Origin: Acanthopleura granulata
Taxonomy: Eukaryota; Mollusca; Polyplacophora; Chitonida; Chitonidae
Length of the DNA stretch: 64,000 nt
NCBI GenBank assembly: GCA_016165875.1
Contig: JABBOT010000005.1
Coordinates: forward strand, 18,917,136 to 18,981,135
Direction of reading: 5' to 3'
The notes beneath the pieces were generated by a model. It ran no database searches and was not told the origin of the DNA. It saw only the letters and a list, made by a program, of their open reading frames with translations. Of the stretch, positions 10,038 to 63,333 are shown one piece after another. Made by a program: the position numbers and the translations under genes. Position 1 is the first letter of the stretch, and each line of letters opens with the position of its first letter.

Positions 10038-10294
10038 TATTTATTTATTTATTTGATTGATGTTTTAAGCTGTCCTCAAGAATATTTCAATTATACGATG
10101 GCGGCCAGCATTATAGGGGGGAGGAAACCGGGCAGAGCCCGGGGAAAACCACCACCATCCGCAGGTTGCTGGCAGACTTTCCCACGCATGGCCGGAGAGG
10201 AAGCCAGCATGAGCTGGACTTAAACTCACAGCGACCGCTTTGGTGGAAGGTTTCTAGGTCATTGCGCTGCACTAGCGCGCTAACCGACTGAGCC
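10038..10294 (-). repeat. Full-length tRNA-derived SINE, minus strand
   Basis: Reverse-oriented copy. The plus strand starts with the complement of the (AATA)n tail, TATTTATTTATTTATTTGAT. The body blocks CAGAGCCCGGGGAAAACC and GGTTGCTGGCAGACTTTCCC follow. It ends with the complement of the tRNA head, CTAGCGCGCTAACCGACTGA. Confidence 0.88.
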
Positions 10295-12820: not shown

Positions 12821-12886
12821 ACATATATCGGTGATGTTGTTGTTGCTGTCAACCCGTTCAAAAGGCTCAGCATCTATGGAAAACAG
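12821..12886 (+). CDS. Chitin synthase exon e1: motor core strand before the P-loop
   Basis: 66 nt, phase 0 to 0, residues 1-22. [20 protein letters not shown] is the hallmark myosin segment that precedes the P-loop. Acceptor is TTTGGCAG, donor AACAG/GTAGGT. It cannot be the first exon, since a motor needs N-terminal residues before it and there is no start codon. Confidence 0.95.
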
Positions 12887-15800
12887 GTAGGTGCAATGAA
12901 ATCGAACTAAAATGCTGTCTAAGTTTATAATGGTCGATAGTCCAAGGTAACTTTTGAAGTGCGATTGCTGTCGTCTTTTACAGTTTTTCCACGTACACTA
13001 TGGCCCCTAAACGTAGTGCCATCCTTTTATTGTAATGCCTGTCACCACGAACGCTAAAATATCACCCGGGGTATAATCTGTATCCGAGGTACCATCAGTA
13101 ACGATGTTGTCAATTACCATGTTATCACGAGAATATTTATTCTAATTCGTAGTTTCTCTTGCAGTTTTATTAGTACTAATGCCAATGTTCGCCTCACCAC
13201 CGTTATGCTTTAAGTGTGATCGCTGTGAAACTTTCCCCCATACAGACAGTTTAACCTTTTTTAAGGATGCAACGTCGTCATTTGTGTCGTCATATTTTGC
13301 ATTTGGTACCACAATTCTCCTAGCTTATTCTTTAGTTCATACCAATGGGTGTTCGTCTAAAACATTCTCAAGAAGATGACTCTAGCTTGTTCACGAATAC
13401 ATGTTGTCTCACCACCCTGCATGAAGTTCCGTAAAACTGTTGTCCAGATGATTATTTGTTTCCCTTTTGTTAATTCTACACATCATTGTTCTTTGACGGG
13501 AATGTTGGCGTTTTCGGAACCTGAATCATGTAAACCTCACACACGTGAACTAAACAGACTTTGTTGTCTTTATAGGTACGGTTACCGATTAGATTAAGTT
13601 TCATCGAAACCGACAAGGCATTTGTTTTCCTCTTGAGAACATACAGTTCAGAAAAATCCCGAATTTTTAAGGTTGACAATGAAAGTCATACATGAATGGC
13701 TTTTTGCATCTTTTGATTAAGAGATCTCCGATTCCACAAAAAGGACATTGTTTTTGAAGATGCAACCTCAAAGACCAGTCATCTTGCCCTGAATACCTCA
13801 CGGTTCACTGTTAGTTTACGCTATGACAAAAGTTTTCAAAATATTGCGTTCATGCAAGTGAGGTGCAATGGTTGGGCACATTTTGGAGATAATCAAGGAA
13901 AGTATGGGCTAAGCACGTTTGTCTGTCTTTGCAGTTTGATTAAAGTGATGAAGGTATTGGCAGAAAACAATATAGATGTCCCGGACTGTTTGAACTGAGC
14001 GTCAACGCTCGGCATTGTCAAAGCCGCCATTGTTCCCGATGGAGTTGAAGCGTTTTTAGTGGTTATTAGGCACAGAGCCGTAGCTCTTAGACTTTACCCG
14101 AGTTTTTCGTAAGAAATTTTTGTCACGTGGGTATACAGAGATTGTTGGTTGAATTTCTCACGCATAACCACGCCGACGACCTTGCATGCTACGCATGTCC
14201 AGCAAAATGTTTCAGCAATGGTTGTTTTTGCATAGAAGAGACATTGTATTCATGTTGAACAAGTAGAACTCACAACCTTGGTTTGATTAAGTATAGACTA
14301 CCCAACATGTAAAAGCAAAAAAGAAAAAAACACAAAATATACGCATTTTGTAGCCACAAGCTACGGTGTGTGTGCGTTTCCAAAATACGCCCCACGAAAC
14401 GAACACGAAAAACGCCAGGATTTCAGTTTTTGTCCAGAAAATGTCCTCCAATAACAAAAGGGGTGCTAAAGATCTGTATAGGCTTGTTATCGTTAACTCC
14501 GACATAAGAAAGCTCTTACATAACTTGCCAAAGTCAGAGGTTTATGCCGGTAACGCCGGTTTCAGTCACCCATAAAAATGATCACCGTCGTGAGTTAAAA
14601 GTTCCTGAACATCACTTTAAACAAAGAATGAAATAAAACCAATACCGTAAGGTAAGGATGTCCAAGTGCTGCCAGTTTGTTTACTTAGAGCTTTATTTAG
14701 AGGTTATGGGAAAACCTGTCTAGTTTCAGAGAACGTGATTTCTACTGCTCTTAACGTAGAACTTTATGGCTATAAGCTTATTTTTATCTAAAACCGTCGA
14801 CATCTTAACAGGGTATATTTTTGCCTTTATGCGGTTGACGTTTAGCGTCGCATAAAACTTTTGCATTTATCCGAGGTTTATCGGTTTATAGGCGATTGAA
14901 ACCAGATAGCTGGGAGTAACCCACAGTCCTTTGCGAAGTAATTGACAGTCCTCCTGAGGCAGCGAGAAATGGAATTGATTATGTGACCTCATTAGTGAGC
15001 AAGCAAAGCTTCGCCAAATGGCGGTAATGGGAAGAAGAAGGATCCTGCTGATTATCATTATGTTTCAGTATCACCTCAAGTACCAGAAGGCCAAACTTCG
15101 GAGTGACCTAAAGCCCCATATCTTCTGGTTGGCTGACCATGCCTACAAGCGCATGCGCGAGAGACGGGCGCCACAATGCATACTGGTCAGCGGCGAGTCT
15201 GGTTCTGGGAAGACTGAGAACTCTAAGCTAATGGTCCAGCACATAACCTTCATATGTCAGAGTAGCCATCCGTTCTTGGAGGCCAAAATCAACGAGGTGA
15301 GCCTGTGAAAGATGCCCTCATGGTGCATGGTACTTAATGCACAATAATACGCTATTAATCTTTAATTGTTATAAAATTAGACTGTATAGTGTATATATAT
15401 GGATAGGTTGCCAAATTCTAAGAATTTTCTTAGCATTGTCTTCATGCCGTAATTCCACGAAACAAGTTATCCAGAAAAATATATTTATATACTACTTGTA
15501 GTTTTTCAATTCCACTTATGAAAAATGTACAATATCTTGGGAATCAGTAATTGCTAAATATACACAAGTTAGTTATAAACGATTCTCGATGGATGTTTAT
15601 TGCGTATGAACAAAAATTTTGTAATGTTAAAAACACTTCATCAGCTATGGCTACGATTGGCTTATGTTTGATGTATATCCATTGTAGTCAATGTAACTTC
15701 ACTGAAAAACAACAAAGGTGAAAAGAGAAAGCGGAAGATACAAACTTGTGATCAAACTTTCAGAACTATTAACATTGCAGACAACAGAGCTGTGAATTTT

Positions 15801-18800
15801 GGGCTCACAGAATGTTCAGACAGTTACAGTCTTATGAAATTGAAGAGAATATTGGAGATTTTGGACATAGATCTTTGGGAAATAAACTTTTCTCTCCTAA
15901 CACAATAAAAGGTATCGGTGACAAGCAAAGCAGAAATAAATTCACTGAAAGAGTGCTAGCCCATAAAAGCAAAACCCGACAATGTCTCAGCTGATGAAAG
16001 AACCTAAACCCTCAACGCTAAACACACAATCTCACCTTCTTCGCAGTTTTTAACACAGTTGTGAATCTTGACCCCTATTTGTTCAACGTTGTTCCCAGGA
16101 TTAACCTATCCTTCCATAGCCATCCACAACTTGGCCAAAACCTGTGTTGATCGCGTGTATGGTTATCGATGGGGTCAACATTTGTGTGAACACCGACTCC
16201 GAATCTTATATCCCATTGGTCAGGTGTACTCTGGCCTTATGGGTGCAACTCCACAACATTTGTTACAATATAACCACAAGGCCTTGTAATGGCTTTAAGA
16301 AGAACCTACCTTACTTCATATTTAGCCACAGTATCGATTCGATTCGTGTTTAACCTTGGTTCTGGAGAATACAATATGTTACTGTAACAACACGCTGTTT
16401 TTATTTTGAATTTTAAACGCATATTAATTTCGTGAAAAATTGTCAGTTATGGCCATTCTATCATTAAGTTAGCCCAGATATAGATCTTTGTGTAAAATCC
16501 GCCCCTAAATACAGATCCTGCATCCATACCCAGTTGATTGTCGGAACTAAAGATTTTACTTACACTAGCAGCCACGCATGCGCGTAACATTACTAAAAAT
16601 TTGGTAAGGGGGAAATCAGTGAACAGGAAGTTATGGGGGCTGGGTCAAAGAATGATCTAGAAAGTGAGAAAGTCTGCTGCCGACGATATTGTGAAGAACA
16701 AAAGACAATTGTTATAGAATCACTGGCTGGTGTAATATTGATTAAACTGCAGCGCCCACGTTTGATAAATGTGTGTGTGTTTATCACTTTTCGTATCAGG
16801 TGAATCCATTACTGGAGGCATTTGGGAATGCTAAAACTGCGATGAATGACAACTCCAGCCGGTTTGGCAAATACCTGGAGCTGAAGTTCACACCAGCTGG
16901 GATACTAACAGGAGGTAACATTTTATACTGCAGTCAGCGTCTTTGTTTATTCCCCACTAAAATGCATAAAACATTAATCTGTTTATAAGTGATGAAGAGT
17001 AACTCCAGACATGTTTTGGAATGGACAAAAGTAACAAAGTTAGTCAATTTCTGTATATAATACAGCATACGATGATCTCATTGCATAAATATCTTTCTCT
17101 GCACCTGCATTGTTTTCATAGTTCAAACTGAAAACGCAAACGTGAGTGCAGTGTTAAGCTGTTGAAACCCATTTGGCTGTTTAGGCATCTATCCATTGAT
17201 AATACTTGTCCACAGCAAGTGTCAGGAGTTACCTCCCCTGGTTACATGTTGTCAAACGGTCTGACACCACTAATTTCTGCACTGTAATCAAAACAAAACA
17301 GATCTTTGAGATTATTGTAGAACTTCATTTATTTTGCCAAACATCTCACTGTCTTACTTAGCTAAGATCACGGATTACCTGTTGGAGAAGACACGCGTTA
17401 CCCAGCAGGGGGCGGGCGAGAGGAGTTTCCACATCTTCTACTACCTGTTTGCCGGAATGACTCGAGAGGAACTGAGCAATTATTACCTGGAAACACCTGA
17501 GGACTACAGGTGAGAACTAATCAGGCTATAGGTGAGAACTAATCAACTTACAGGTGAAAATTAATCAGTTTTACACGTTGGCAGTATGTTAGCCATACCA
17601 TGCTAACACATGGGTAGCTGAAATGAAGTATTTAGTTCATTTGGATGAAGGGCGCTGTATTTGTCTAATCGCTAAAGATGGCCCCAACTCAAATGTAAAT
17701 CACCTTAAAAGTTGTCACCAAAGAGAGACAACCAGGACAAATGCTGTTTTAATGGAAAAAAAATAACAAACGTCTGTTGTATTTCCTTCAGAATACTTCG
17801 TGACGAGACCCGCGGAGGACCAGTATTCATCTCTGCTGCTGATGTAGAAACCCACAGGCTGATGTTCCACAAACAACTGAACATTCTCAAACTGGTGGGC
17901 TTCACCGAGTGGGTAGGTACCGTTACACTCAGACACTGTGCTCCCTTATACATGTACATATGTCACAACGCTGGTTTTGTTTGATAATGCTTTGGTCATG
18001 AGTAGAATGGAAGATTTACCCGTCTTCTAAATGTATGAATGATTGCAACCATACCGTGTTGATCAAGATGCGCGAAGAGCAATTTTGTGACAAAATGTTT
18101 TCAGGCGCACAAAGAGCTATATTGTGACAGATGATGTAGGTGCACAAAAAGCTATTTGTTACAAAATGATCCAGGTGCATGAAGAGCCATTTGTGGCAAA
18201 ATAATGTAGAAGAGCCATTTTGTGACAAATTGATCAATGTGCTTGAAGAGCCACGTGACGGACTGATCTAGATGTATGAAAAGCCATTTGTGGCAACATG
18301 ATCTAGGTGCACGAAGAGCCATTTATGGCAAAATGATCTAGGTGCACGAAGAGCCATTTGTGGCAAAATGATCTAGATGCACGAAGAGCCATTTAGAGAC
18401 AAAATATTTTCCAAGGATTGCACAGATATTTTGTGGAGAAAGATTTTTCATGATATTTAATGACCTCAGAGATGCATTAACAAAAGAGCATGTGTTAAAA
18501 GGCGGTGTGTTTATACGATTTACCAACTTACGAGATGATTTACCGGTTTAAAAGTTTTAATTTTTATTTTGTGGCTCCCTTTTCCCTCCAAAACTTTATT
18601 GTTTCAATTTCCTTTTCACCCATCTGATTACAGGAGATATCCATGATCTTCACCTTACTGGCCGCCGTACTGCATACCACAAACATCACATTTGCCAAAC
18701 ATGACGACTCCGACCTCGTGTACATTGTGGACGAGCTGCCTTTACACATTGGTACGCTTACTTGCTCATATATCATTACATTTGTAAAGTTAAAGATGCA

Positions 18801-21800
18801 ACGAATTACTAACTAGACATATTTTTATCTCTATTTTATATGAAAGCAATTATAATGGAATCTCTCTGTATCTACAATACATACAACAGCAATGTCTGTT
18901 ACTTTATTGCCTTTAATTGGGGGAGAGAGATAACTCCTTATACTACATCTATAATCAGTTTCACTGAGAACACTTCTATTTTAATAATTATATTTTTCGA
19001 ATGTTTTAATATTTCATAATATATGTGTTGTAATTTTTTAAACGTGAGCTTCACCAGAACTTTAATCGTGGATTAGTGAAGTAATGGCTCGAGACATTTG
19101 GAACTTCCTAATTGTGTGCAATTAAAGCTGTCTCTGTGTATGTTACATGTATTTCTCTACAGTGTGTAAACTGATGGGCCTAAGCGAAGCGGCCGTGGCC
19201 GAATCCCTGGTTTCTAGCGCCACTTATACAAGAGGTGAGTGTTGCTGCGTTTTCTTGGTGAATAACAAACTGCATGGTATGTAACTATCACAATATGATT
19301 CTGACCTCTAGAGGATAATTTGAATAAACATGAGTTGAACATGGGGAGATATTTTCTCCATAGAATAGAAATTTCCAGAAAATTCAGGGATTAGGTTAAC
19401 GCAAGGGAGGTTACAAAGTTAGTACGTAAGGTTAAGAGCGTTTTGTATTAAGATACATGTATACCATCCTACTGAAGGCATGATGAGTAGGCCTAGGTAA
19501 TGTACTTTCTTAGAGTGGACTGATTCTTAGCGTTGGTTTTGTGCTGGGTGTAAATGGTAAAGACTTGATAACACTGTTATCTCTATCACTGTGCACTGAT
19601 GACACGCCGTGGTAATAAAAGGAACTAAATAACTCTGCTCTTTGAAGACACGCTATGCTGAAGATTCTGGAACTTTTGCCACAGTGCGACATATTTGCCG
19701 TTATGTTTCAGGAGAGCGTGTGATTATGAACAAAAACCTCCACCAGGCGAAGGACGGCCGCGACGCCATCGCGAAAGCTCTTTACGCTCGACTGTTCGGC
19801 TGGATCGTACGTCAGATCAACCTGCGTCTAAAACCACAGGTGGAATACAAGTAAGTCATCGTAGGACTAATAATTAGAAATATACCAGTAGGTAGCAATG
19901 GGCAACTTTCCCTCGCAATGAAGACTTCGGCCCAAGCTGAATCGAGCATGGTTCATTGATTTATCTATTACTGATCCATTTCTGGGATGAGTTTCTCATC
20001 CAGACTAAAATACACGAGAAGGTTAGCGAAAATACATTTGTCGCCCCGATTCCACAAAGCCATTTCTGGTAAAATTCAAAATCTGAAAAATGACTTTGTA
20101 GGTATTATTTGAGTCATGGAAATTAAAAGTTGATGGCCTCATCAATATTGAGACAAATGTATCAAAATTTCAGCTGGCTGTACCAAAAGAATAAGCACTA
20201 CGACAAAGATTTAAATCTTGAATCAAATCAGAAATGGCTTTCTGGAGTCTGCCTGTGAAGTTAGAATTATAAAGCCAAAGACGGTCCAAAACCTGACAGT
20301 TTCATTTGCAATATGCATAAGAAATTTTGGTGCCAGAATATTTAATGATCCCTAAGTGTTCTGTAACAGCCGTATTAGACAAATATTAAAAAATAAAACT
20401 TAACATTAAGTAATTCTTACTTATAAAACAAAGTATTTGCTTGCCGTATGCATTTGTAGAAGAAAATATCTACCAAATAATTGTCTGTTGAAACATATCA
20501 CTCATATATGATGACATTGTTGCTTAAGCAAAACATACAACTATATATAGAAATATATATCTCTATGACGTCATTCTTGTTTAGGCAAAAACTCGACCTG
20601 AGCGTTGGAATCTTGGATATGTCTGGATTCGAGAACTTTACCTACAACAGTTTTGAACAGTTGTGCATCAACGTGGCCAATGAGCAGATGCAGTATTACT
20701 TCAACGATCACTTGTTTGTTGAGGAGCAGAGAGAGTACGAATTAGAGAGGGTTCCCTGGACACATATCAACTTCCAGAACAACAAGGAACTCCTCAATAT
20801 GTTTCTGGCTGTAAGTGTCTATGGAGTCCTGTGATGACTGCAGTTGTTGACGAGTCTCATTACGACTGTATCAAGTCAGTCACTTTGCGATACTATGAAA
20901 TACCAAGCACTACATGGTCGTCGAGTGTAAGAACATCTTCACTGAACTTTTTTGCGCTGTGTGATAACACAACAGTCAGCTGTTGTCAGAAAGACTCAAG
21001 GAATGTTTTATACGCGCGTAAATACCATCGATCTCCATATCATGTACCGTACTAGGTGATAAGTTGTCATTAATGAAAACAAAATCTGCTATAATTCCAA
21101 CCGCGGGTGTGTTATTTATTACTATTTGATTGGTGTTTTACGCCGTACTAATGAATATTTTACTTATACGACGGCATTGCAGAAACCATTATGTATTTTA
21201 GCCATAACGTCGATTCTCATGCCGTTGTTGTAAAAGAAAACACTTGATCTGTTATCTATGACGTCTGTTTTTATGTCGTTGTTGTAGAAACCGCTTGGTC
21301 TGTTAGCGATTATGGACGAGGAGTCCCGCTTTCCCCAGGCCTCGGACGCTACTCTCGTGGAGAAGATGGCCACAAACTGTACTGACCCTGTCAACTTCCA
21401 GAGATCCTTCACCAGCAACCTCGGATTCTCCGTCACACACTACGCAGGAACGGTAAGTAAAGCATTTCCGGGCCAAAGTTCACCGTCAGTGTCAAATCTA
21501 CCATGCCTGCATTGATACTGCCCACTGATACTGCCACCAACATTCCCAGGAGGCCAGTTTGTATAACACTGTTGTGCAACATCAATCTTACTTGCGCAAC
21601 AAGTCCTGTTTCCCATCAGGTGAGCCTGGTTCAAGAATTGAGCTGTGTTCGTGGATTGCTCATCGAAGGTTTCGCCCCAGCAATGTATCAACATGCTGTG
21701 TAGCTCGCCCTTGATCATATATTCGGGACATGTAGTGCTGGAACCGACATTCTGACAAATCTGCAAGGCCGTTGTGCCGATAACGTGAAAGTCAACAATG

Positions 21801-50806: not shown

Positions 50807-50857
<51 letters not shown>

Positions 50858-51748
50858 TGAAATAAAACTTTTCTTTACTATGCAATATGGGAGAGGTGTG
50901 TGGATAAATATTCCCAACAATCATCATCTCGTGAGCTGAATACTGTGTTCATATCCCAGTCGAATAAAGCCAGGAAGCCAGAATTGCAGATATTCTTACT
51001 TCCTTCGCTTGGCACTAAGCTAAGCGGCCTTAAGTCAGACGGTTTGTCATATAGCCACTGATTGGAGAATTCGGTTTTCACGAACTTAAACTAATGGCTA
51101 CCTCCGCCATTAAAGACACGTGGTCGCCCAAAATTTGAATTTTTAAACAAATTCTGATTGCGACGTCTTAATGAAGTTTTGAAGTTCGTTCATAAACTAA
51201 CTCAGTTACGTTGAAATAAAAAAAATTCATTGAGTATGTAGGTTGTACGAGCCCGGACAAGTTCTGTTTTCGAATTCTATTCGAATTCAAGACAAAGAGG
51301 GCGGGCCAATGTTCGACGTTGTAACACCGCCACAACAACAACAACATTTACACCAACCTATCAAGTTGTGTAGTTTAATTACAATTACAATTCTTTTTTT
51401 TTTTGACGAGCGAGCAGTAAGCCCTTCTCTTACGGGTGTCATCAGCCAGGTTTGTATACATATGAAGTTTACCAAGCACTGTGCGCATGCTCCAGTTCCA
51501 CTGAATTGACAGCCCCTTTAAATATTCTCTCAGACTTTTCAGTTTTCATTTTTTTGTTATTTTTAAACATTAACTTAATGTACAATGCAGGGGTGGGATT
51601 GATAAAAAGCTTGCAACTTTTACCTCTTTAGAAAAATGCCTAATAATTTTGTCATTTCGCAATAACTCTAAAATACCTACTATTTGGGCGACCATGTCCC
51701 CTTAACGTGACTGTTGCCATATGTGCCAAAAAATGTTGTGCGCATCAA

Positions 51749-51779
<31 letters not shown>

Positions 51780-54700: not shown

Positions 54701-57700
54701 GTCATTTGTGAACTTCAAAGTGGCAACATTGTGCAACAGATGCTGCTTTTGACATTAAAGCGGTGATGTCTTCATAATAAAAAGTCTACATTTAAGTAAT
54801 GAAGCAGTTAAACACGCTGAATTGTAGAACGAAATCTGCTGAGTCTATTAATGTTCAACCCCTATATCACCACGAGTTACTTTTCTTTGTATATTTTTTT
54901 GACAGTGAATAACAAACTTTACAACGGTTTTAAATGAAATGAGTACTATATTAAATATTTTACATTTGTTTCATCTAAAATTACAACTCATATACCGGAC
55001 ATGCAAGACAAACCTTAATTAGATGGTACATTATATGTGTATTGAGCATTGAGAGAGTGCATCAGTGGGACTTCGTTTGTGTACTGTTCTTTTCCTGCAA
55101 TGTTTTGGGTTTCACCTGTTTCTGATTTGGCCTGGGCTCTTATTTTTGCGTCTCGTAGAATGTCTGACACTAGATGAAGTTGAATTTTGTCCATGGATTT
55201 AGATTTAGATTTACTGAGACATTTACATTTGAATTCATTAACGATTAGCCAGTATAGAGCGGGTCATTGAACTGGATATGCTGGTCGTCTTCACGCTGTT
55301 CGTGACGAATTAGTGGCCACGTGTCTTCAGTGGCTTTGCCTGAACCAAGATGTACGAATAGTTCCGAGAACATCCAGTGACCGATTTAACATGTACAGCT
55401 ATTTCCGGCTGGAGTCGAAATTTAAAATCTCTTCACTAAGTTTAATTTTTGGTATTAGAACTTGAAATTTTCATACTTATGTCAAAAGGTAATATTTAAG
55501 AGGCAATCAGAATTTTAACTTCTTTGGACCCCAAAATAACTTCTAAAACTGAGTTTCAGATTTTGACCTCATTCAGAAATGGCTATGCGTCATCGTTCCC
55601 TGGTTCCTCATTGCAATTCGAACTGGAATACCAGTGTGTTGATCTAGAGAAAACAGGATATGACATTAAACTTTCGTCTGAGGAAGGTTTTCCTCTCTGT
55701 CAGTTCTGCTTAACCCGTTGTTGGGTTTGAGATGGACTTTATAACGGGGGCAGCTCTGGTTAACGGAGCACTGAAGACCGAATCTTCTCACATGGTCCCG
55801 TCTGGGAACGGAAGCTGCGGGATATCCTGGGACGCATGTTTTGTCCGTATGTCACCGCTCTCTACCTCGCCCTAACCCGCGCTCCTTATACATCTTCACA
55901 AGTCCAGGTCGTTTGGACAAGTGTTTAAAGCGATTCTCAGTGAATTTGCCCGGCGCATAAGGCTGAGCTCCATTGTTTGTGCAGCAATGCATTATTACAT
56001 GTGCGAAGTCTCACTTTGGCAAGGCGCTAAACCGTCCCGGGTATCTGGGTAATCTCGTCTATGACGTCACAGGGTCACGAGGACGTAAGTTGGGCCTACA
56101 CGAGAAGACACCTTGCATTGTTTGGTGAAGGTGTCAGGCTGACATCTCTTCCAGTTCACACACCTGGCTCCGACCAACAGGTGGCGATAAACTGTTGACA
56201 CCAACATTGGAAGGAAAAAAATTATTTCAGATGGGTACAATTCACTCACCGTGTGATGTTTGATGTCTCCTTTTCAAGCCTTCAGATACACATTGCACCA
56301 AAATTGGACTCGGTTTTAAGATTTTCAGCAACTTATCGTCTTTCTAATGCGATTTGCAATTGGGGTAGACCAACCAATAAACGGTTATTTAATTATTTAT
56401 GTATTTATTTGATTGGTGTTTTACGCCGTGCTCAAGAATATTTCACTTATACGAGGGCGGCCACCATTATGGTGGGAGGAAACCAAACAGAGCCCGGGGG
56501 AAACCCACAACCATCCGCAGGTTGCTGGCAGACCTTCCCACGTACGCAACAAACTGATAATATCAACAAAGACAAAGACTTCCCACTGGTTATAGCGAGT
56601 TGCTAACTAAATTTATAAATGCCAAAGCCTCTGGCTTCTGCACCGTATTTTTGGAATACCCTGCGTGCTAACACACACAACTGTTGAATGGCCATTTAAA
56701 AATTATCTACGTTTACATTCATAAATAGCTAGAAATAGTTATCTAATATTCCAAAGTGCGGGAAATCCATGTATTGATTAAAATCTATGGATTTTCTAAA
56801 ATACCACCAACAAAACACTGGCACTGTCAAGGTTTCGTCTCCAATGTCAGTCACAGAATGTCAGTTGTTTAATCGATGTTATTTACCTTTGTTTTATAGG
56901 TATAAAGTTCTAGCCTTCCAACCTTTAGAAAACGTAGATCCTACTGGAGCCAACTGTTTACTGATCGCCCAAAAAGCCCAACTTGAAGAATATGCCATCG
57001 GAGAATCAAAGGTAGGGTATCGGCATTTCTGAAGACATGGGCATGAAAAGACCATCGCCATTTTTTTTCTTTGCTGGTGACATCGATTTAGGAACAAATG
57101 CGCTGTTTTCCAAGTTTCTGAGAGTTTCAGTTTTATTAGTTGCTTCATATAATGTTCTTCATATAATTGTGTTTGAACAAAAATGGACACGACAGGTCAT
57201 GAGGCTTCTTTTCATTTCTTTTTTAACTTTCCATAGTTTGTTTGATGGCGAAAATTTGTTTTTCACGGGCACGTTTTACAATAATCTTTAACCTAATTCC
57301 ATTAAAGGCACGGCGCTAAGGGCAAGCTTGATCAGTTGCATAAAAGTTTAACAGAGAAAACAAGTATGTGACGGGACATCAGCTAGCAAACTCTTTAGCT
57401 TCTTATATTTAACAGCGTTTGCCATGTGCTCTCTCTCTTGATAATAATTGTTATTTTCAACAAAGACTGTGGATTCTAAAAACAGTGTATAGCGCAGTTG
57501 ATTGAATCTAGCTGAACAGGCGTGTTAAGTCTAACGCTAACTGTGTAATCGAATATGCGTTTCTGTGACGAATGTCCATAGTTACACAACACATCACGTG
57601 CGTATCCCATAATCCCAGTTTGCCTAGTTAATCCGCCTCCAACACTGAAGAAGGCATGTTATATTCCTAGCCTGTCACGTCACTGGGCTCTGAGCTGGGT

Positions 57701-60700
57701 CTCAACACTGGCATTATTTACCTGCAATAAAATGAGATTCAATGCATCTTCAGAACTTAAGTCGTCTTTTAACTGTAAAAGACGAAGAACAAAACCGCAT
57801 CTGTTTTGAGATCAGCTCCAATTTAACGCCTGCTGTTTTCAAGGTTAGATGCTGCAGGTTAAATCATAACTGTATGGGCAGTGTTTCGTGAGGTGTTAAA
57901 AGTCTACCTTTACAAGCTGTCCTTTTTTGACTTACGACATTGATGCCATCACTTCACAATACTTTTCTCAGATGGTGCATGTAGATAAGAGGTGTTTAGA
58001 CCGCTTAAAGGCAAAAAGAACCGAAGTCTTGCCAGGCTAGTCCAGGTTCTAGCTTAGCAGCTTCAAACATAATGTAGGCTTTCATGGCGATCGCAAGTCT
58101 TCGGAACCCGAAGTTTAAGGTTTTAAACCCTTGACTTCCTTCGCAGATATTCCTCAAGATCGGCCACGTAGACAGCTTAAACGCCTGCCTGCAAGACGTC
58201 GAGAGGAAAGTGAGTCGGGTTCAAGCTCTTGTCAGGGGTGTACTGGCCAGGAGAAAAATCAACGAAGAAGTGGCCAGGAAGAAAATGGAACAAATCGCCT
58301 TAGACGCCTTTAATAAAATGCATGAAGACGACGTGACCAAAATTGGGAAGCCCATCAGCAAGCCCCTCGACATCACGGTAAGCGGTAGTTATTATATTGA
58401 CAAATCTGACCGTTTCTTTAGTTTATTTTACAGTATTATATATTTTGTACCGTTGTGTTTGATTGTTTGAGTTGTCTGTGTTGTTCAACGGTGGTCAATG
58501 GCCAAGGTATTGAACAGTTATTGATTCGAAAGGATGGGTCCTCGAGCTGTTCGTGAAGCGTTCCTCTTTCGTTCTACCGTTGGTGTTTGCTCATGCTGTA
58601 CGAAATGCTCTCTGCCTCTCAAGGCGAAGGATTATGCGAAAAGACGAGGGGATTTACATGAAACAACAGAGCATACACTCGACTGGGAAGCGAGAGAAGG
58701 CCCCAACTGCCACTTGAGCAGACAGGCGGAATGTCTGCACTTTTGCATTGGCGTTACCCTTACCTTATCCAAACAAGAAGATAAAGGGACAAAGTTTCTG
58801 GCCTTTCCAACAGCAAGCCTTTGGACTCGGCTTGAAGACGTGTCCCGAGCCGAAAATGAAACGGTTTTGATGGATGCCCGAAACAGCTTAGTTTCTCCAG
58901 AATATTTGTGATATTTTGGGCGGCGAAGAAAATAGCAGCTGTGCCGTTGTTGCAAGGTATCTTGTCTTGTGTTTTGATTGGTCAAGGGTTTTATTTTGCT
59001 ATTTCATTGTGCAATTTGACTGAAAAGATCTCTTGATAACATATGATTGTTGTCTGTCCACAGAACATCCTGGGGCCACTGTCAAACGAAGACTTCGCAG
59101 CCATGAATGGAGACGGGAAATTCGGCCAGGCTGAATCGATAGAGGCGGCCAAAAAGGCTTATACCAATCGCCTAGAAGAGGACCGTGCGAGGAGAAGGAA
59201 AAAGCGGAGGCGTCGGAATTCTCTTAGATCCAACTGTACATCAGAAACCACATCGACTAGCCAAATGACGTTGTCAACTGAAGATAACAATGCGTAAGTT
59301 ATTTTTTCGAAAACAGTATTCTTATTTACTTTCTATTCTTCTCCCGTGTGTGATATGTAGTACCAAGGTTGCTCATGTAAAACATTATTGGTATTCCTGT
59401 TTACAACTTTTCACAACATTAAGGAAAGTCTTAATGCATAACTCCTCGATCGTATGAAAAGGACAAAGTACCATCTATCGGGTGTGGATGAAGGCGTGGC
59501 GAATGATTACTCCTCTCTTTTTGTTAGCCAATACCGAATTGCTGAAGAATCAACAAATGTCGATACAAGCGAAAGTTTCGCCGCGCTGTTCAAAAGCGAT
59601 TTTTCTCAGGGTTGTTCCCTTTTTTCCTTTTCCTTCGTAACAGTCTGTTCTATTCCCTGCCTAGACACAATAGATCGCATGTAATAATTACATTCATCCG
59701 AATTCGTAACATTGTCATATGCCGAAGGGTGGCAGCAAAAAAGAAACTTATATCTAGTTAGGGAATCGTTTTAAGGTTATGTAAATAGGAGACCTTGCGG
59801 AAAATATGCCGGTCGTGCTAAGCCGGGTGCTCTATCATCGACCTGACGGCCCCCAACCGGCTTTCTTCGTATGTCGTACTCTAGCGCTAAGCCCCCCCAA
59901 CCCCCCGAAAGATCCATCGCCTTGTCTTCTGGCAAAATTCATTTGTGTAAGCACATTTCGGACAACGTTCGACGGGAATTCCGAAGAGCTACATGGGCGA
60001 GTGGAGGAGAGAGAGGGAAGAGAAAGAGAAGAGAGAAAAAAACCTGAGGGAGACCTTAGCTCCTTATCCTCAGCTCACAGCGGTCCAATTGGCAACAGTG
60101 TCGAATTCTCAGAAAGAAATCAATATTTAAACAAACCGGAGAGGGAGCCATGGTGAGTCAGGTCAAACAGGAAGGCTGATCGATCCGCGAAGCCCGAGTT
60201 ACTCATCTCTAGCCCAAAACCTCCTCCAAACTCGACACACCGCTCCGGGCTCTTTGTCTCTCCTTCTTACCATCCTAATCATCTATCCAGGACACTTGCT
60301 CCCCTAGCAGCGTAGAGTACGAGCTGCCCACTGAACATCTGGTGGTAGATGTGAGATTGAGAGGCTGCGGTTTTTTTTTTCACTTTCGATCATGGATGTA
60401 CTTATGGAAATGCCTTAACAGTCACTTCAAAAGCGGAGTGTAGGCGACCGAGAGAGCCCCTTCAACATGGCGCACCACTTCCAGAGGTTTGTCAGAAAAC
60501 TTTTCTAACTTTTCATCATAGTTGTATAGATTTATTGAGAAAAAAAAATTCCAGTGTTGTCAGCGACTAAGCCATTTTAGCTGTTTCAAAGCGATTCCAG
60601 CGACTTTAAAACTCTGTGTAGGCAGGAAAAATCTGGACTTGGAACAGCGACTGAAGAAAGTCGTATACACCTTGATACAGTTAAATTTTATGCAAACGAA

Positions 60701-63333
60701 ACGTTGATTTCAATAATCACTGACTACCTGTTGAAATATTTATTATTGAAAAAAAATCTAGAGGATGTTTGTTGGAAAAGTTATGGTTGTGAAAACTCCA
60801 TTTCGGAAAGACTCAGTTTTCACACGTCAGAAGGATTGAGGAATTTTTATCTACGTTTCAACATGGCGTCCCCGTGAGGCGAAACTCTGGACCTCCTGTG
60901 TTTGAACGACAAACATTCACGGTTTTCCGACGGCAAACATCCCTGGGTCTGAAACTTGTAGCTAACCTGGAATACATCGATATCTTAGGCTTAATACCTG
61001 CGCCTATCTAACACTCGTGTTTCGGGAATATTTTTGGTTCTTGCTCTGATGCTTTTTGCGCGCATAAAATCGTTATGTCTCTTCGCTAGCATTCATCTGA
61101 GAGGTGTCCTTTTCGTAGCTCAGGCCATCGGCCATGTTTTTTTTACAGTTCTCGCACATAATGACACACGCTTCGTGTTCGATCTACTCTCCCATGCAAG
61201 GAGACAACAAAATGGCGGCTTTGTATAAATAAAGCGAGACAGGAATTTGTTGAAGATAGTAAACGGGGTTATACATTTCGTCTCTCAAGCAAAGAGGGTA
61301 CCAAAATGGCGGCTACTTACATATGTACAGATCTAGGAATTTGTGATGTTAGTATACCGTTTCGTACTTTTTGTATCCCAAGCAAATGAAATACAAAATG
61401 GGGGTAATCTCTTACATATGTAGCAGACTGGGATTTCGTGAAGTTAATACACGATTTTTACTTGTGTCAAGCTAAAGGGCTACAAAGTATGTGCAATGTA
61501 TACCATATGTAGCAATCCAAGATTTTGTGAAGCTGGTAGGCGGATTTAGACTTTTTGCCAGATATCTCAACCTCGCGCTTTATAACTTAAAGGATGCACC
61601 TCTAGGATGTACAAGATGCGTATGGATGGAAGGTGGCATCAACATGCGCAACGTCTATTTGTCAACAGATTGGCTTTGTCTCCGAGTGTTTGTAAATGCT
61701 TATGATTAAGTAACACGTTTGTTTTTCTCATTTCGTGCTAAACTAAACATCAATTGTTGTTGAATTGTTTTTTCTTCAGTTCCTCTAAATACTGCTTGTT
61801 TTCTTATGAAAAGCTACTCTGTTTTAAGCGAACACCCAACCAAACATCATCCTTCATGTGTTTTCTGAGGTTGGCTTGTTTTCGCAAAGCAAACAAGGGT
61901 TGTAATTCTGTTACCTCATAGTTTCTTTAGACGAACTAGAGAACAAATTGTTATGAAAGATCAGCCAAGCCAGGTTAAAGATGAACTACGCCCTATTAAA
62001 GAGAAGCTCCTATAGATATTGCTAATTGGAGAATGTCGCCGAAAGGAGCATTCTATGATGATCTTAAACGGCACACGCCCCAGCGTAAACATGGCGTAAT
62101 ACATCATCTGCATCCTGACATCAATTCAATGGCCTAAACCCTGGGTGACAGAGTCTATTTACAACGTACCGTGTGGATGACGAGATTTTGAAGGGATAAT
62201 TACTTGTCCTGTGACTGTGTAGACGGGCTTTATTCTGATGTAATGTGTCGCCTAAATGGCCCTTTTAACTGCGGTGGCGTTTTGTTCATATGTAAATAAA
62301 AATCTGATTGCTTTTATATCTTGCACAATGTACTTCTGCGTCCACACCCGGATACGTGCATCTGGTTTTGCTCCATGTTTACTCTAAATTGTAGTTCAGT
62401 TTTCACGAGAAAAAACTGGCTTATAAGCTGTAAAATGAGGTATTATTAATGAAAAAGTATGCATAGACAGATTTATTTTGTTGAAGGTGTCGAAAAACAA
62501 CCACATTGGTTAGTAACGAAGTCATAAATTTAACTGCATCTGACCGATTAGGCGAATCAGACTGCCGGATTTCAGACCATTTGCCCTTTGCAAATACTAG
62601 CCTGTGATTAAAGCCTGGTGTCGGCTGATCGGCTGTCTTCTGAAACCGAACTCGCGTGTTCAATCCCGGCTCTGGCCTATATTGACAGCAAATTTTTGTC
62701 ATGAAGTCAAGCACAAAACGAAGAGGAGTCCTTTTCCTCGCATGGTTCAATGTGGTTTCATCCCTCCACGAAACCGACCCTCTGTCATATATTCAAAAAT
62801 TCTTCAGAATGGCTTTAAGCCTTAGTCCAAGAAATAATAAATAAATAGTCTCCCCGTACACAGTCAGATTTCTTTCACCAATAAGTCCAACCACTGCTGT
62901 ACCAGTGCAATCGTCTGTATCAAGGCATATTTATTGTTTTATTCATTTATTTGGATTGTTACTTATAGCTACACTTAAGCATTTTTCACGCAAACAACAT
63001 GTATATGTACGGAAACTACCTGTTGCAGATGTTGGCAATATTCAATACCTGAGTGCTACAGCTCGTGTCAATATTTTCTCGTATGTTTTTTTATTTCGGA
63101 AAGCTGATTGAATCTTTGGTTCTATTTTCAGACAACCTGTGTGGGATATATTCAAGACTGTCTCCAGGAAAAGTGAGACATTATACGAGACTTCCACAAA
63201 CTGGTTTGAAGTGGCCGCCAAGAGTTTCAAAGTGTTTGCCTACCTTATTATTTTTGTATGTGTTCTGGCTAGTGCAATAGCGAGCAAAGCTAGCCTTTTG
63301 CTTATGACACATTCAATGGGCGATGTACAACAG
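12821..63333 (+). CDS. Myosin-motor chitin synthase, partial gene (23 exons; both ends missing)
   Basis: Spliced product of 975 residues joined from 23 exons (numbered e1-e23 below; residue numbers count the first residue of e1 as 1). It contains a myosin head with P-loop GESGSGKT (64-71), switch I NDNSSRFG (114-121), TEDS-site glutamate E291, switch II DMSGFE (347-352), RCLKPN (599-604) and an IQ motif (711-721). A polybasic linker follows, then the juxtamembrane sequence [14 protein letters not shown] and a first transmembrane helix. The last part is what I recognise as the conserved start of the membrane region of molluscan chitin synthases. Members of this family polymerise UDP-N-acetylglucosamine into chitin at the plasma membrane and are proposed to link shell-matrix chitin to actin. 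The catalytic domain must lie downstream of the window. Every junction is GT-AG and phase-consistent. Not resolved: the 5' exons, and whether e12, e13 and e21 are constitutive. Confidence 0.93.
12887..15068. other. Intron 1 (phase 0)
   Basis: 2.2 kb with no recognised gene. Contains an isolated terminal-repeat-like motif of the inverted-repeat element (CGATTCCACAAA at 13729-13741). The open frames in it look like chance. Confidence 0.8.
15069..15296 (+). CDS. Chitin synthase exon e2: P-loop exon
   Basis: 228 nt, phase 0 to 0, residues 23-98. Carries the nucleotide-binding P-loop GESGSGKT (15192-15215, residues 64-71) preceded by the [13 protein letters not shown] segment equivalent to the HIYAISDNAYR helix of other myosins. 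Acceptor GTTTCAG, donor AACGAG/GTGAGC. Joins e1 as IYGKQ/YHLKY with no missing residues. Confidence 0.97.
15297..16799. other. Intron 2 (phase 0)
   Basis: 1.5 kb, AT-rich, no gene or repeat recognised apart from weak short open frames. Confidence 0.8.
16800..16914 (+). CDS. Chitin synthase exon e3: switch I exon
   Basis: 115 nt, phase 0 to 1, residues 99-136. Contains [20 protein letters not shown] followed by FGKY: the switch I motif (NDNSSRFG, 114-121) that senses the gamma-phosphate. Acceptor CGTATCAG, donor GGAG/GTAACA. Confidence 0.97.
16915..17361. other. Intron 3 (phase 1)
   Basis: 447 bp with no additional feature seen. Confidence 0.8.
17362..17509 (+). CDS. Chitin synthase exon e4: motor, upper 50K
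   Basis: 148 nt, phase 1 to 2, residues 137-185. [20 protein letters not shown] then [12 protein letters not shown] matches the conserved YLLEKSRV...ERNFHIFY block of myosins. Acceptor CTTACTTAG. The donor (ACTACAG/GTGAGA) is repeated twice more downstream at 22-bp spacing. Confidence 0.96.
17506..17575 (+). repeat. 22-bp tandem triplication of the e4 splice donor
   Basis: The exon-intron boundary segment (AG/GTGAGAACTAATCA plus spacer) occurs three times, with GT at 17510, 17532 and 17554; the third copy reads GTGAAAATTAATCAG. Only the first donor keeps frame with e5. Confidence 0.85.
17792..17912 (+). CDS. Chitin synthase exon e5: motor, upper 50K
   Basis: 121 nt, phase 2 to 0, residues 186-226. 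Encodes the variable stretch ending in LKLVGFTEW, equivalent to the AMKVLGFSEEE region of other myosins. Acceptor TTCCTTCAG, donor GAGTGG/GTAGGT. The intron before it (17510-17791) contains the duplicated donors. Confidence 0.95.
17913..18633. other. Intron 5 (phase 0) with 35-bp minisatellite
   Basis: 721 bp, about half of which is the tandem array at 18070-18405. Confidence 0.85.
18070..18405. repeat. Minisatellite, ~35-bp unit, about 9-10 copies
   Basis: Units share GTGCACGAAGAGCCATTTGT and GGCAAAATGATCTAG. The last three start at 18300, 18335 and 18370, exactly 35 bp apart, and are nearly identical; earlier units are more diverged and vary in length. Confidence 0.9.
18634..18751 (+). CDS. 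Chitin synthase exon e6: motor, upper 50K
   Basis: 118 nt, phase 0 to 1, residues 227-265. [20 protein letters not shown] corresponds to the IFRILAAILHLGNIEF block. Acceptor GATTACAG, donor ATTG/GTACGC. Confidence 0.95.
18752..19162. other. Intron 6 (phase 1)
   Basis: 411 bp, AT-rich, nothing else seen. Confidence 0.8.
19163..19234 (+). CDS. Chitin synthase exon e7: motor, HCM loop side
   Basis: 72 nt, phase 1 to 1, residues 266-289. [20 protein letters not shown] then YTR fits the LLGVDxxxLxxALT segment leading to the cardiomyopathy loop. Acceptor CTCTACAG, donor AGAG/GTGAGT. Confidence 0.94.
19235..19711. other. Intron 7 (phase 1)
   Basis: 477 bp with no additional feature seen. Confidence 0.8.
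19712..19850 (+). CDS. Chitin synthase exon e8: TEDS site and HO linker
   Basis: 139 nt, phase 1 to 2, residues 290-335. Contains [20 protein letters not shown], the DALAKxLYxRLFxWIV motif of all myosins. The TEDS residue, 16 positions before the D of DAIAK, is E291, so this motor would not need heavy-chain phosphorylation at that position. Acceptor ATGTTTCAG, donor TACAA/GTAAGT. Confidence 0.96.
19851..20584. other. Intron 8 (phase 2) with inverted-repeat element
   Basis: 734 bp; holds the inverted-repeat element at 20042-20254. Confidence 0.8.
20042..20254. mobile_element. MITE-like inverted-repeat element, copy 1
   Basis: Left end CGATTCCACAAAGCCATTTC and right end GAAATGGCTTTCTGGAGTC are inverted repeats of each other with a few mismatches and bound a ~210-bp AT-rich, non-coding interior. 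The same left terminal motif opens the element at 45068-45245. This fits a non-autonomous DNA transposon. No target-site duplication was established. Confidence 0.65.
20585..20810 (+). CDS. Chitin synthase exon e9: switch II and relay helix
   Basis: 226 nt, phase 2 to 0, residues 336-411. Carries switch [10 protein letters not shown] (DMSGFE at 347-352), then [19 protein letters not shown], the relay helix with NEQMQYYF in place of NEKLQQFF. Acceptor TTGTTTAG, donor CTGGCT/GTAAGT. Confidence 0.97.
20811..21287. other. Intron 9 (phase 0) with SINE tail and 54-bp repeats
   Basis: 477 bp. Contains a SINE 3' fragment (21113-21178), directly followed by a degenerate 54-bp tandem array that runs into exon e10. 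Confidence 0.8.
21113..21178 (-). repeat. SINE 3'-end fragment, minus strand
   Basis: Only the tail end of the SINE is present: ATTTGATTGGTGTTTTACGC then CGTACTAATGAATATTTTAC and the TATACGACGGC block. It ends about 110 bp before the e10 acceptor. Confidence 0.75.
21178..21310 (+). repeat. Degenerate 54-bp tandem array spanning the e10 acceptor
   Basis: GTTGTTGTA followed by A/G-rich sequence and CTTG-TCTGTTA-C occurs at 21224 and again at 21278, 54 bp apart. A third, more diverged unit starts near 21178 (GCAGAAACCATTATG). The last unit contains the true acceptor and the first codons of e10. Confidence 0.7.
21288..21452 (+). CDS. Chitin synthase exon e10: motor, lower 50K
   Basis: 165 nt, phase 0 to 0, residues 412-466. 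[20 protein letters not shown] then TLVEKM is the conserved GILxLLDEExxFPxATD motif; it ends in VTHYAGT. Acceptor GTTGTTGTAG, donor GGAACG/GTAAGT. Confidence 0.97.
21440..21958 (-). other. Unassigned 172-codon antisense open frame
   Basis: Minus-strand ORF with Cys-rich, protein-like sequence ([20 protein letters not shown]). Its stop codon lies inside e10 on the opposite strand. No domain recognised. It might be a remnant of a mobile-element gene or an exon of an antisense gene (possible acceptor near 21764 on the minus strand), or chance. Confidence 0.25.
28193..28238. repeat. (TATC)n-(TA)n microsatellite
   Basis: About five TATC units pass directly into twelve or so TA units. Confidence 0.95.
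30591..31200. repeat. Minisatellite, ~27-bp unit, more than 15 copies
   Basis: Repeated core ACATGACACCCCATCCAGTC plus a spacer, giving a 27-bp period. The 3' half (30977-31200) is most regular; the 5' half has variants such as GGCGTTACACCTACCCAGCC. Because 27 is a multiple of three, one frame stays open and reads a 9-residue repeat (SDMTPHPVT). I take this as a by-product of the period, not as a gene. Confidence 0.9.
31818..32024 (+). repeat. SINE copy, plus strand, with internal deletion
   Basis: Head CTTGGCTGAGTTGGTTAGCG, body GGATGGTCGTGGGTTTCCCC, then a jump to AAATATTCTTGAGTAAGGCG and an (AATA)n tail. The segment with the GCCGTCGTATAAGT block found at 7040-7062 is missing. Confidence 0.85.
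32190..32440. repeat. Irregular tandem array, unit ~20-30 bp
   Basis: Repeated AAAACGTGACAGTAATGCAA-like units with variable spacing; long antisense open frames across it are caused by the repeat composition. Confidence 0.65.
33560..33603 (+). repeat. SINE 3'-tail fragment
   Basis: GAGTACGGCGTAAAACACCA followed by an (AATA)n tail, without the rest of the SINE. Confidence 0.75.
34066..34338. repeat. Minisatellite, unit ~37-45 bp, about 6 copies
   Basis: Diverged repeats of ATTAAACCATTAACTTCTGT with AAACGTTGAA spacers; the first and last copies are the most alike. Confidence 0.8.
34349..34592 (+). repeat. Possible second-family SINE
   Basis: Has a box B-like GCAGTTTCAATCCCACTC, about 240 bp length and an AATAAATAAAAA tail, but differs in sequence from the main SINE family. 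Weakly supported. Confidence 0.4.
34708..34728. repeat. (TA)n microsatellite
   Basis: About ten TA units. Confidence 0.9.
35486..35628 (+). CDS. Chitin synthase exon e11: lower 50K, actin-binding side
   Basis: 143 nt, phase 0 to 2, residues 467-513. [20 protein letters not shown] is the V-Y-GWLEKNKDxL motif. Acceptor TCGCTGTAG, donor CTCAGA/GTAAGT. The end of this exon begins the surface loop 2 region. Confidence 0.96.
35741..35815 (+). CDS. Chitin synthase exon e12: acidic loop 2 exon, possible cassette
   Basis: 75 nt, phase 2 to 2, residues 514-538, only 112 bp after e11. Encodes [20 protein letters not shown] then EG. Acceptor TTCCGGCCAG (weak pyrimidine tract), donor GAAGG/GTAAGT (strong). 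It keeps frame whether included (D514...G539) or skipped (E). Coding-like composition and matching phase on both sides are the evidence. It is a polar, acidic insertion in actin-binding loop 2 and a good candidate for optional splicing. Confidence 0.75.
37803..37876. repeat. Two-copy direct repeat
   Basis: CATCTAGCTGATAGGGTGTG at 37803 is repeated as CATCTAGCTGACAGGGTATG about 45 bp downstream, each followed by CAA(A)TTG. Confidence 0.7.
39600..39855 (+). other. Coding-like open frame in the loop 2 intron
   Basis: 85 codons starting after a plausible acceptor (TTTTATTAG) in the phase that e11 or e12 would supply. Sequence is protein-like ([20 protein letters not shown]). However, none of the GT dinucleotides I checked in it gives the phase required to rejoin e13, so it is not called an exon. 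Confidence 0.25.
42310..42496 (+). repeat. Possible second-family SINE
   Basis: Box B-like GCTGGTTCGAATCCTC and an AATCATAAATAAATAAA tail about 130 bp further on. No convincing box A. Weakly supported. Confidence 0.4.
43199..43267 (+). CDS. Chitin synthase exon e13: basic part of loop 2
   Basis: 69 nt, phase 2 to 2, residues 539-561. [20 protein letters not shown] then LR: lysine- and serine-rich, as expected for loop 2. Acceptor CTCTCTTACAG with a long pyrimidine tract, donor CGCAG/GTAAAC. Symmetric phase means it too could be skipped in frame. Confidence 0.9.
43268..44343. other. Intron 13 (phase 2)
   Basis: 1.1 kb; the part around 43680-44010 is richer in GC and CpG than its surroundings. 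No gene seen. Confidence 0.8.
44344..44398 (+). CDS. Chitin synthase exon e14: end of loop 2
   Basis: 55 nt, phase 2 to 0, residues 562-580. [19 protein letters not shown]: the VGxxFR element that follows loop 2 in all myosins. Acceptor TCTACCCCAG, donor TCAGG/GTAAGT. Confidence 0.93.
45068..45245. mobile_element. MITE-like inverted-repeat element, copy 2
   Basis: Starts GGGAGCGATTCCACAAAG and ends AGTTTTGTGGAATCGGCC, an inverted pair (CGATTCCACAAA / TTTGTGGAATCG), with ~145 bp between. Same terminal motif as copy 1 at 20042. Non-coding. Target-site duplication not determined. Confidence 0.7.
48725..48856. repeat. Minisatellite, 33-bp unit, 4 copies
   Basis: TCATTAAGA/A-type starts at 48725, 48758, 48791 and 48824, exactly 33 bp apart, with CATCATCATTA-like interiors. 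Confidence 0.85.
49938..49993 (+). CDS. Chitin synthase exon e15: strut to the RCLKPN strand
   Basis: 56 nt, phase 0 to 2, residues 581-598. [18 protein letters not shown] is the canonical LxxLMxxLxxTxPHFVR segment. Acceptor TCTTTTACAG, donor GTCAG/GTAAGG. Confidence 0.96.
50808..50854. repeat. (GA)n microsatellite
   Basis: About 22 GA units with one short interruption at the end. Confidence 0.95.
51747..51782. repeat. (AATA)n microsatellite
   Basis: Nine AATA-type units without a recognisable SINE body upstream. Confidence 0.9.
52708..52761. repeat. 27-bp tandem duplication
   Basis: Two head-to-tail copies beginning AATAATCTGCTGATCAC and ending AAGCTTTGT, differing at one base, which suggests a recent origin. 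Confidence 0.9.
54086..54235 (+). CDS. Chitin synthase exon e16: RCLKPN strand and SH helices
   Basis: 150 nt, phase 2 to 2, residues 599-648. The split arginine codon plus CLKPN gives RCLKPN (599-604), the most conserved actin-interface strand. [20 protein letters not shown] (618-637) is the SH1-SH2 helix region: the two reactive cysteines of muscle myosin II are Ala623 and Arg633 here, while the hinge glycines (G625, G636) are kept. Acceptor TTTCTTGCAG, donor GACAA/GTAAGT. Confidence 0.97.
54236..56899. other. Intron 16 (phase 2), 2.7 kb
   Basis: Contains a truncated SINE (56385-56546). No other feature recognised. Confidence 0.8.
56385..56546 (-). repeat. Truncated SINE copy, minus strand
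   Basis: TTTGATTGGTGTTTTACGCC, GCCACCATTATGGTGGGAGG and CATCCGCAGGTTGCTGGCAG are well preserved, but the tRNA-like head is missing after CCTTCCCACGTACG. Confidence 0.88.
56900..57011 (+). CDS. Chitin synthase exon e17: converter
   Basis: 112 nt, phase 2 to 0, residues 649-686. [20 protein letters not shown] through EEYAIGESK: converter domain ending in the IGxTK motif. Acceptor GTTTTATAG, donor TCAAAG/GTAGGG. Confidence 0.96.
57012..58146. other. Intron 17 (phase 0)
   Basis: 1.1 kb. Nothing recognised; the open frame at 57037-57291 is T-rich and looks like chance. Confidence 0.8.
58147..58377 (+). CDS. Chitin synthase exon e18: lever arm with IQ motif
   Basis: 231 nt, phase 0 to 0, residues 687-763. 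Starts [12 protein letters not shown] (the KIFFRxGxLAxLE motif) and contains one IQ motif, [11 protein letters not shown] (711-721), a predicted calmodulin or light-chain site, then a charged helical stretch ([20 protein letters not shown]). Acceptor CCTTCGCAG, donor ATCACG/GTAAGC. A good donor sequence, GTGAGT, lies inside it at 58210. Confidence 0.96.
58378..59063. other. Intron 18 (phase 0)
   Basis: 686 bp. Contains a 125-codon plus-strand open frame (58534-58908) and an overlapping antisense one; neither has recognisable homology. Confidence 0.75.
59064..59293 (+). CDS. Chitin synthase exon e19: polybasic linker
   Basis: 230 nt, phase 0 to 2, residues 764-839. An acidic/neutral start ([18 protein letters not shown]), then the run [11 protein letters not shown] (804-814, about 59184-59216), then a Ser/Thr-rich tail ([17 protein letters not shown]). 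The basic cluster could bind acidic lipid, actin or calmodulin, or act as a nuclear-signal look-alike. Acceptor TGTCCACAG, donor AATGC/GTAAGT. Confidence 0.93.
59294..60073. other. Intron 19 (phase 2)
   Basis: 780 bp. The open frame at 59454-59681 has some coding-like sequence but no acceptor or donor that fits. The C-rich stretch at 59890-59908 is notable but unexplained. Confidence 0.75.
60074..60152 (+). CDS. Chitin synthase micro-exon e20: linker
   Basis: 79 nt, phase 2 to 0, residues 840-866. [20 protein letters not shown] then TGEGAM. Acceptor TTATCCTCAG, donor CCATG/GTGAGT. It supplies exactly the phase change required between e19 (out phase 2) and e21 (in phase 0); no other acceptor-donor pair I tried in this interval does so with a convincing coding sequence. 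Confidence 0.75.
60291..60350 (+). CDS. Chitin synthase micro-exon e21: linker
   Basis: 60 nt, phase 0 to 0, residues 867-886: [20 protein letters not shown]. Acceptor CATCTATCCAG after a long pyrimidine-rich stretch, donor GTAGAT/GTGAGA. Only this frame is open. The symmetric phase would allow skipping. Confidence 0.8.
60422..60486 (+). CDS. Chitin synthase micro-exon e22: linker before the membrane region
   Basis: 65 nt, phase 0 to 2, residues 887-907. [20 protein letters not shown] then Q and a split Arg codon. The intron before it is only 71 bp. Acceptor GCCTTAACAG, donor CCAGAG/GTTTGT. Joins e23 as [10 protein letters not shown]. Confidence 0.82.
61197..61557. repeat. Minisatellite, ~90-bp unit, 4 copies
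   Basis: CAAG...ACAAAATGGCGGC-type unit starts at 61197, 61286, 61379 and 61468 (spacing 89, 93, 89). Each unit carries a CTTACATATGTA-like block and a GGAATTTGTGA-like block. Confidence 0.85.
62608..62849 (+). repeat. Possible second-family SINE
   Basis: Box B-like GCGTGTTCAATCCCGGCTC near the start and an AATAATAAATAAATAG tail ~190 bp later. Weakly supported. Confidence 0.4.
63132..63333 (+). CDS. Chitin synthase exon e23: juxtamembrane segment and first transmembrane helix
   Basis: 202 nt, phase 2 to 0, residues 908-975. [20 protein letters not shown] then [12 protein letters not shown] is the conserved entry to the membrane region of molluscan chitin synthases. [20 protein letters not shown] (942-961) is the first predicted transmembrane helix. 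Acceptor CTATTTTCAG, donor CAACAG/GTGAGT. Further membrane spans and the glycosyltransferase domain should follow beyond the window. Confidence 0.96.

Follow-up and report, generated by a model that had tools for sequence, protein, structure and literature searches.

The gene that crosses the stretch of Acanthopleura granulata DNA analysed here (64,000 nucleotides, hereafter the window) is likely a single myosin motor–chitin synthase gene of 81 kb, belonging to the chs-2 group and probably read from two starts, one for a full protein of 2,435 residues and the other for a version of 1,594 residues that lacks the motor. The window corresponds to C5:18917136-18981135 within a genome of 606,523,666 bases in 87 contigs. 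It contains exons 2 to 20, while exon 1 lies about 0.8 kb before it and the catalytic part 13–16 kb beyond its end. The gene model was built from the window itself with its flanking sequence (20 kb upstream and 60 kb downstream), exon boundaries being picked by splice score and phase and the gaps being filled using orthologs, and the stretch was compared with two paralogous loci in the A. granulata genome.

The resulting model (Table 1) has 30 exons and runs from -771 to 79923 in window coordinates. All 29 introns are GT-AG, there is no internal stop, and the sole stop is the terminal TGA. Since phase itself guided the choice of sites, the agreement of phases does not by itself amount to independent proof of the model, whereas the profile and ortholog matches given below are independent of it. 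The original prediction had proposed a chain of phase-consistent exons from 12821 to 63333, leading from canonical myosin motifs to a chitin synthase membrane segment. Both ends are exact, the first being a good acceptor (ttggcag/ACATAT) and the second a good donor (CAACAG/gtgagt), and the 19 exons in between do link up through GT-AG introns in compatible phases, from the motor motifs to the juxtamembrane and first transmembrane exon. By contrast, its length of 975 residues and its exon numbering up to e23 were not recovered, since the same span gives 882 residues in 19 exons in the present model; the earlier chain probably included false exons.

Table 1. Exons and domain of the predicted motor–chitin synthase gene (position 1 is the first letter of the window; negative positions precede it).
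Feature	Position	Strand	Content
Exon 1	-771..-673 (outside window)		ATG start
Exon 2	12821..12886	+	TYIGD..NPFK, motor core start
Exon 3	15069..15296	+	ATP-binding P-loop GESGSGKT
Exon 4	16800..16914	+	Switch motif (10 residues)
Exon 5	17362..17509	+	Motor
Exon 6	17792..17912	+	Motor
Exon 7	18634..18751	+	Motor
Exon 8	19163..19234	+	Motor
Exon 9	19712..19850	+	Motor, Glu presumably at TEDS position
Exon 10	20585..20810	+	Switch II DMSGFE
Exon 11	21288..21452	+	Motor; 14 kb intron next
Exon 12	35486..35628	+	Motor as far as loop 2
Exon 13	43199..43267	+	Loop 2, 69 bases; evidence weaker than for other exons
Exon 14	44344..44398	+	Loop 2 end, ..STVGQYFR
Exon 15	49938..49993	+	Lower part of head
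Exon 16	54086..54235	+	..CLKPN, towards converter
Exon 17	56900..57011	+	Converter
Exon 18	58147..58377	+	Converter end and one IQ motif (11 residues, by pattern)
Exon 19	59064..59293	+	Linker: basic RRRKKRRRR, then Ser/Thr-rich; weak donor
Candidate exon 1b	60467..60486	+	MAHHFQ and two bases of R; alternative first coding exon
Exon 20 (e23 of the original prediction)	63132..63333	+	Synthase juxtamembrane segment and first transmembrane helix
Exons 21–30	outside window, to TGA at 79921-79923		Synthase continuation
Chitin synthase domain	about 76611-79920 (outside window)

In the order of the model, a myosin head is followed by one IQ neck motif, a basic, Ser/Thr-rich linker, a transmembrane block and the chitin synthase domain. 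On the assembled protein, Pfam recovers Myosin_head (PF00063) over its full length (669.6 bits, profile positions 1–679 of 679, residues 5–698), in agreement with the identity first given to the motor, and the same domain is called independently on four exons (E 5.5e-22 to 9.3e-11, at 15078, 16797, 17361 and 20589 of the window). Chitin_synth_2 (PF03142) is found at residues 1628–1839 (85.6 bits) in the same reading frame as the motor, and a profile search of the genome contigs places its exons at C5:18994331-18995282, past the window end. The motor carries the P-loop, both switches (I and II), a Glu placed 16 residues ahead of DAIAK and an IQ-like motif, while the synthase carries DGDVDF, GEDRWL, QRRRW and SWGTRE. 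We take these motifs, from the P-loop to SWGTRE, to have the functional meaning usually given to them, and we assign the Glu of exon 9 to the TEDS position by a position rule. The IQ model of Pfam was not called on the predicted protein, the IQ-like motif being recognised by pattern. Among solved structures, the motor best matches myosins VIIa, X and XV, and the synthase half of the Liolophura protein best matches chitin synthase 1 chains (E 1.3e-13); many of the 120 motor-related proteins listed (best 120 of 7,215) bear a myosin III annotation. With a complete head and the catalytic motifs in one frame, the window gene is, as judged from its sequence, of the lophotrochozoan motor–chitin synthase design, as had been proposed.

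Within the motor, exon 13 is the least secure, since its SYMTKPKSK is similar to SFATRPRTK of Haliotis and this similarity is a weaker basis than that of the other exons. With 69 bases and equal phases, it could be skipped in frame, and skipping would shorten the actin-binding loop. The introns contain tandem arrays at 18084-18405, 30947-31198 and 34064-34336 (units of 35/70, 27/54 and 37 bases, respectively). Copies of a dispersed repeat, partly translatable (27 residues), lie at 1757-1985, 10038-10255, 21095-21167 and 56393-56538 in the window and, outside it, at about -16426 and 81424, and the paralogous locus C5:8.3 Mb has this repeat as well. Rfam gave no match on the window at gathering scores, and none of ten open frames picked from the 754 listed had a Pfam match at E 0.01.

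The case for a second start comes from another chiton. The Liolophura sinensis synthase P0001 is annotated without a motor, and its N-terminus MAHHYER stands directly before QPVWDIF. A search of the window for a MAHHYER-like start returned one site, the candidate exon 1b, with two mismatches that both change the residue (Y to F and E to Q). The site sits between the motor exons and the synthase exons, it is followed by a GT in the phase required by exon 20, and its surroundings have one match in the genome (very common words being skipped in that search). Joined to exons 20–30, it would encode the motorless protein. Considering the match, the phase, the following GT and the genome uniqueness, we read the locus as giving two outputs, so that it probably has two products, one with and one without motor. 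Against this reading, exon 1b has a weak donor (0.66), although three of the other 29 donors, among them that of exon 19 (-0.1), score lower; 7.7% of the GTs in the window score as high. A CpG signal is lacking too: neither start stands out in the profile, both being average or low (ranks 141 and 263, and 384 and 329, of 460). This weak donor would suit a locus that makes the full motor–synthase only, in which the match at exon 1b would be fortuitous or unused and the Liolophura model without motor an annotation artefact, all the more as many paralogs are annotated as fused and gene predictors can presumably miss 5' exons across introns like the 14 kb one. Yet MAHH(F/Y)(Q/E)R occurs in the correct phase and in the correct intron, with 0.01 such matches expected per window, and we consider this explanation unlikely. 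No report of alternative starts of molluscan motor–chitin synthases appears among the literature matches listed (titles and abstract openings); one study suggests, without going further, that alternate exon usage may add diversity (PMC3942024).

According to the original prediction, a separate start codon just upstream of exon 20 would have spoken against a joined transcript. A candidate for such a start does exist, with its match to the Liolophura N-terminus, but as far as the sequence tells it does not overturn the fusion. Exons 17–19 are upstream of exon 1b, yet they keep frame and phase into exon 20. Moreover, among the 14 other aligned proteins, 11, gastropod and cephalopod ones included, have a linker like that of exon 19 immediately ahead of their juxtamembrane motif, the exceptions being those of Lottia, Littorina and Liolophura. 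The shared feature is a basic, then Ser/Thr-rich block, and exon 19, like exon 13, is backed by weaker similarity than the other exons. Since the linker exon lies upstream of exon 1b and is common to these 11 proteins, transcripts that begin further upstream are expected too, and they probably use it. On the synthase side, the exon ending at 63333 is, as first described, that of a chitin synthase, with 95.6% identity to the chiton juxtamembrane and first transmembrane segment. Orthologs are annotated as a single protein in Lottia (partial), Argonauta (partial, lacking the stretch that matches residues 589–693) and Haliotis (head N-terminally shortened). Ten motor-bearing relatives from the source 'lgn' (P0027-P0031, P0041, P0056, P0071, P0076 and P0116) have 2,096–2,412 residues and come from contigs of 7.0–8.3 kb. 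These contigs exceed the coding length by barely 0.5–1.3 kb and thus look like mRNAs, which supports fused mRNAs in the family, though not in the window gene itself.

In Liolophura sinensis, motor and synthase are annotated as separate models, each on a contig of 58,388,612 bases, and no single Liolophura protein containing both this motor and this synthase is found among those listed (best 120 of 992; 19 of 19). Read literally, this would mean that chitons have two transcription units, i.e., a free myosin-III-like motor and a motorless synthase starting at exon 1b, from an old fusion that has split. The continuity of exons 17–19 with exon 20 and the resemblance of the linker to the segment preceding the juxtamembrane motif in most of the aligned proteins argue against such a split, as does the Liolophura motor model P0121, which is of low quality, has 390 residues and ends mid-head; we regard it as quite unlikely. 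P0121 also leaves the expected frame across the part matching exons 8–9, which may reflect either an assembly error or a recent motor lesion.

A third alternative is that the motor is a decaying remnant and that the synthase alone matters. The unaligned part of P0121 over exons 8–9, which resembles another frame there, would fit with decay, and so would the proteins of some heterobranch gastropods, which retain the converter and IQ motif only. However, exons 1–19 of the window gene have neither a stop nor a broken splice site, and the nucleotide-site motifs are kept. With 16 differences from Liolophura in the first 314 residues, the motor is about as conserved as the synthase (95.4% identity to P0001), which argues against decay in this lineage, and we find this alternative very improbable. 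A single gene, with full and motorless products, is thus the reading that we retain.

To place this gene among its relatives, a FastTree phylogeny was computed from the synthase part of 101 rows: the window gene plus 100 listed proteins, 20 of the 120 having been left out because their coverage was short. The program warns of long branches in this tree. In it, the window gene groups inside a molluscan clade of 18 rows with a local SH-like support of 100. This clade holds the chs-2-like orthogroup, including Liolophura P0001, Lottia P0002, Haliotis P0003, Patella P0005 and Octopus P0008. Whereas the window gene has a complete Myosin_head, the annotations of the 17 other rows lack this domain in 14 cases; Pfam calls it in the three remaining rows (Lottia, Haliotis and Argonauta), and the P-loop is present in two of these (Lottia and Argonauta). 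By motif, four rows are labelled 'converter-only' (P0003 of Haliotis, P0009, P0011 and P0014) and 11 'none', a label that understates what remains of the motor, as BLAST aligns P0008 and P0012 to the neck as well. Among the annotated proteins, to which this comparison applies rather than to genomes, four of eight tested gastropod sequences (P0009, P0011, P0012 and P0014), which we take to be heterobranch, have no annotated head but keep the converter and IQ neck, and three of them share a similar N-terminus (MTRV..).

Elsewhere in the A. granulata genome, the Chitin_synth_2 profile matches 14 places in nine loci. The profile also matches four of 14 control genomes, bacteria included, so that some of these loci may not be chitin synthases; three of the nine (L009, L014 and L016) match the listed synthase relatives at only 29–35% over fragments. 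Myosin exons lie upstream on the same strand at no fewer than three of the nine synthase loci, a lower bound because scoring covered 65 of the 204 candidate myosin matches. At the window locus and at two paralogous loci, motor, transmembrane and synthase exons are colinear. The loci L027-L030 correspond to two further motor–chitin synthase genes, whose matched exons extend over about 20 kb each versus 81 kb for the window gene; the one at C5:8.3 Mb is near the Leptochiton protein (80%) and the one at C13:14.8 Mb is near Liolophura LOC135463580 (92%). Upstream of the synthase loci at C16:9.90 Mb and C1:9.54 Mb, no motor was found within 20 kb, but this does not prove absence, given that the window gene itself extends over 81 kb.

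From a functional perspective, transcription from the upstream start at -771 would join all 30 exons into the 2,435-residue motor–synthase. Its myosin-III-like head, with intact nucleotide-site motifs, would be cytosolic and connected by a short one-IQ lever and the basic linker to a transmembrane glycosyltransferase that is predicted to polymerise UDP-GlcNAc and to extrude chitin. If active, the motor would most likely bind cortical actin and hold or position the enzyme at the secreting membrane, by analogy with fungi; alternatively, it may couple the synthase to cytoskeletal tension at that membrane. The internal start at exon 1b would yield the same synthase without motor, which by the same analogy might be free of the actin tether or control. 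The fungal class V synthases have a motor that is described as binding actin and as required for proper localisation and that is thought to tether enzyme vesicles near exocytosis sites, CsmA being unaffected by point mutations in the P-loop or switch I (PMC4425547). As for molluscs, mechanical feedback via myosin has been put forward (PMC2241824), and in another chiton a chitin synthase gene is expressed in larval spicule-bearing cells (PMC12046283).

More speculatively, the molluscan chs-2 locus may act as a two-promoter switch that produces the same synthase with or without myosin, an idea that we put forward tentatively and regard as possible rather than probable. If it holds, part of the 'motor losses' reported in lophotrochozoans would be isoforms or missed exons, whereas heterobranch gastropods would have gone further, keeping the lever arm only. 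Such a natural pair of transcripts with and without motor would make the role of the motor in chitin secretion testable in one animal without any engineering, and it would caution against deducing motor loss in this family from individual annotated proteins.

The motor–synthase design is already established in molluscs, and what we add is the model at exon level together with candidate exon 1b. A myosin–chitin synthase fusion was reportedly described in bivalves by Weiss in 2006. Two studies report the fusion in many lophotrochozoans, along with ten chitin synthases in Lottia and secondary motor losses in synthase groups B and C (PMC3942024), and among the annelid and molluscan myosins of class XVI (PMC3942036); the main text of the A. 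granulata genome paper does not contain the word myosin (PMC7850002). Two of the listed proteins, the Leptochiton asellus CS (P0022; 40% identity to the window protein over residues 4–2270) and Atrina rigida Ar-CS1 (P0026; 36% over residues 6–1167 and 44% over 1259–2270), have the same order of head, linker, transmembrane block and Chitin_synth_2 in one protein as the window gene, but they belong to other paralog groups, on other branches of the tree. The motor chitin synthases of fungi (classes V and VII; myosin XVII) follow the same logic, with an N-terminal motor and a synthase, while the window protein has neither Cyt-b5 nor DEK_C (Pfam, E 0.001). The separate origin of the fungal and animal fusions, which had also been part of the original prediction, agrees with the published accounts (PMC3942024, PMC3942036).
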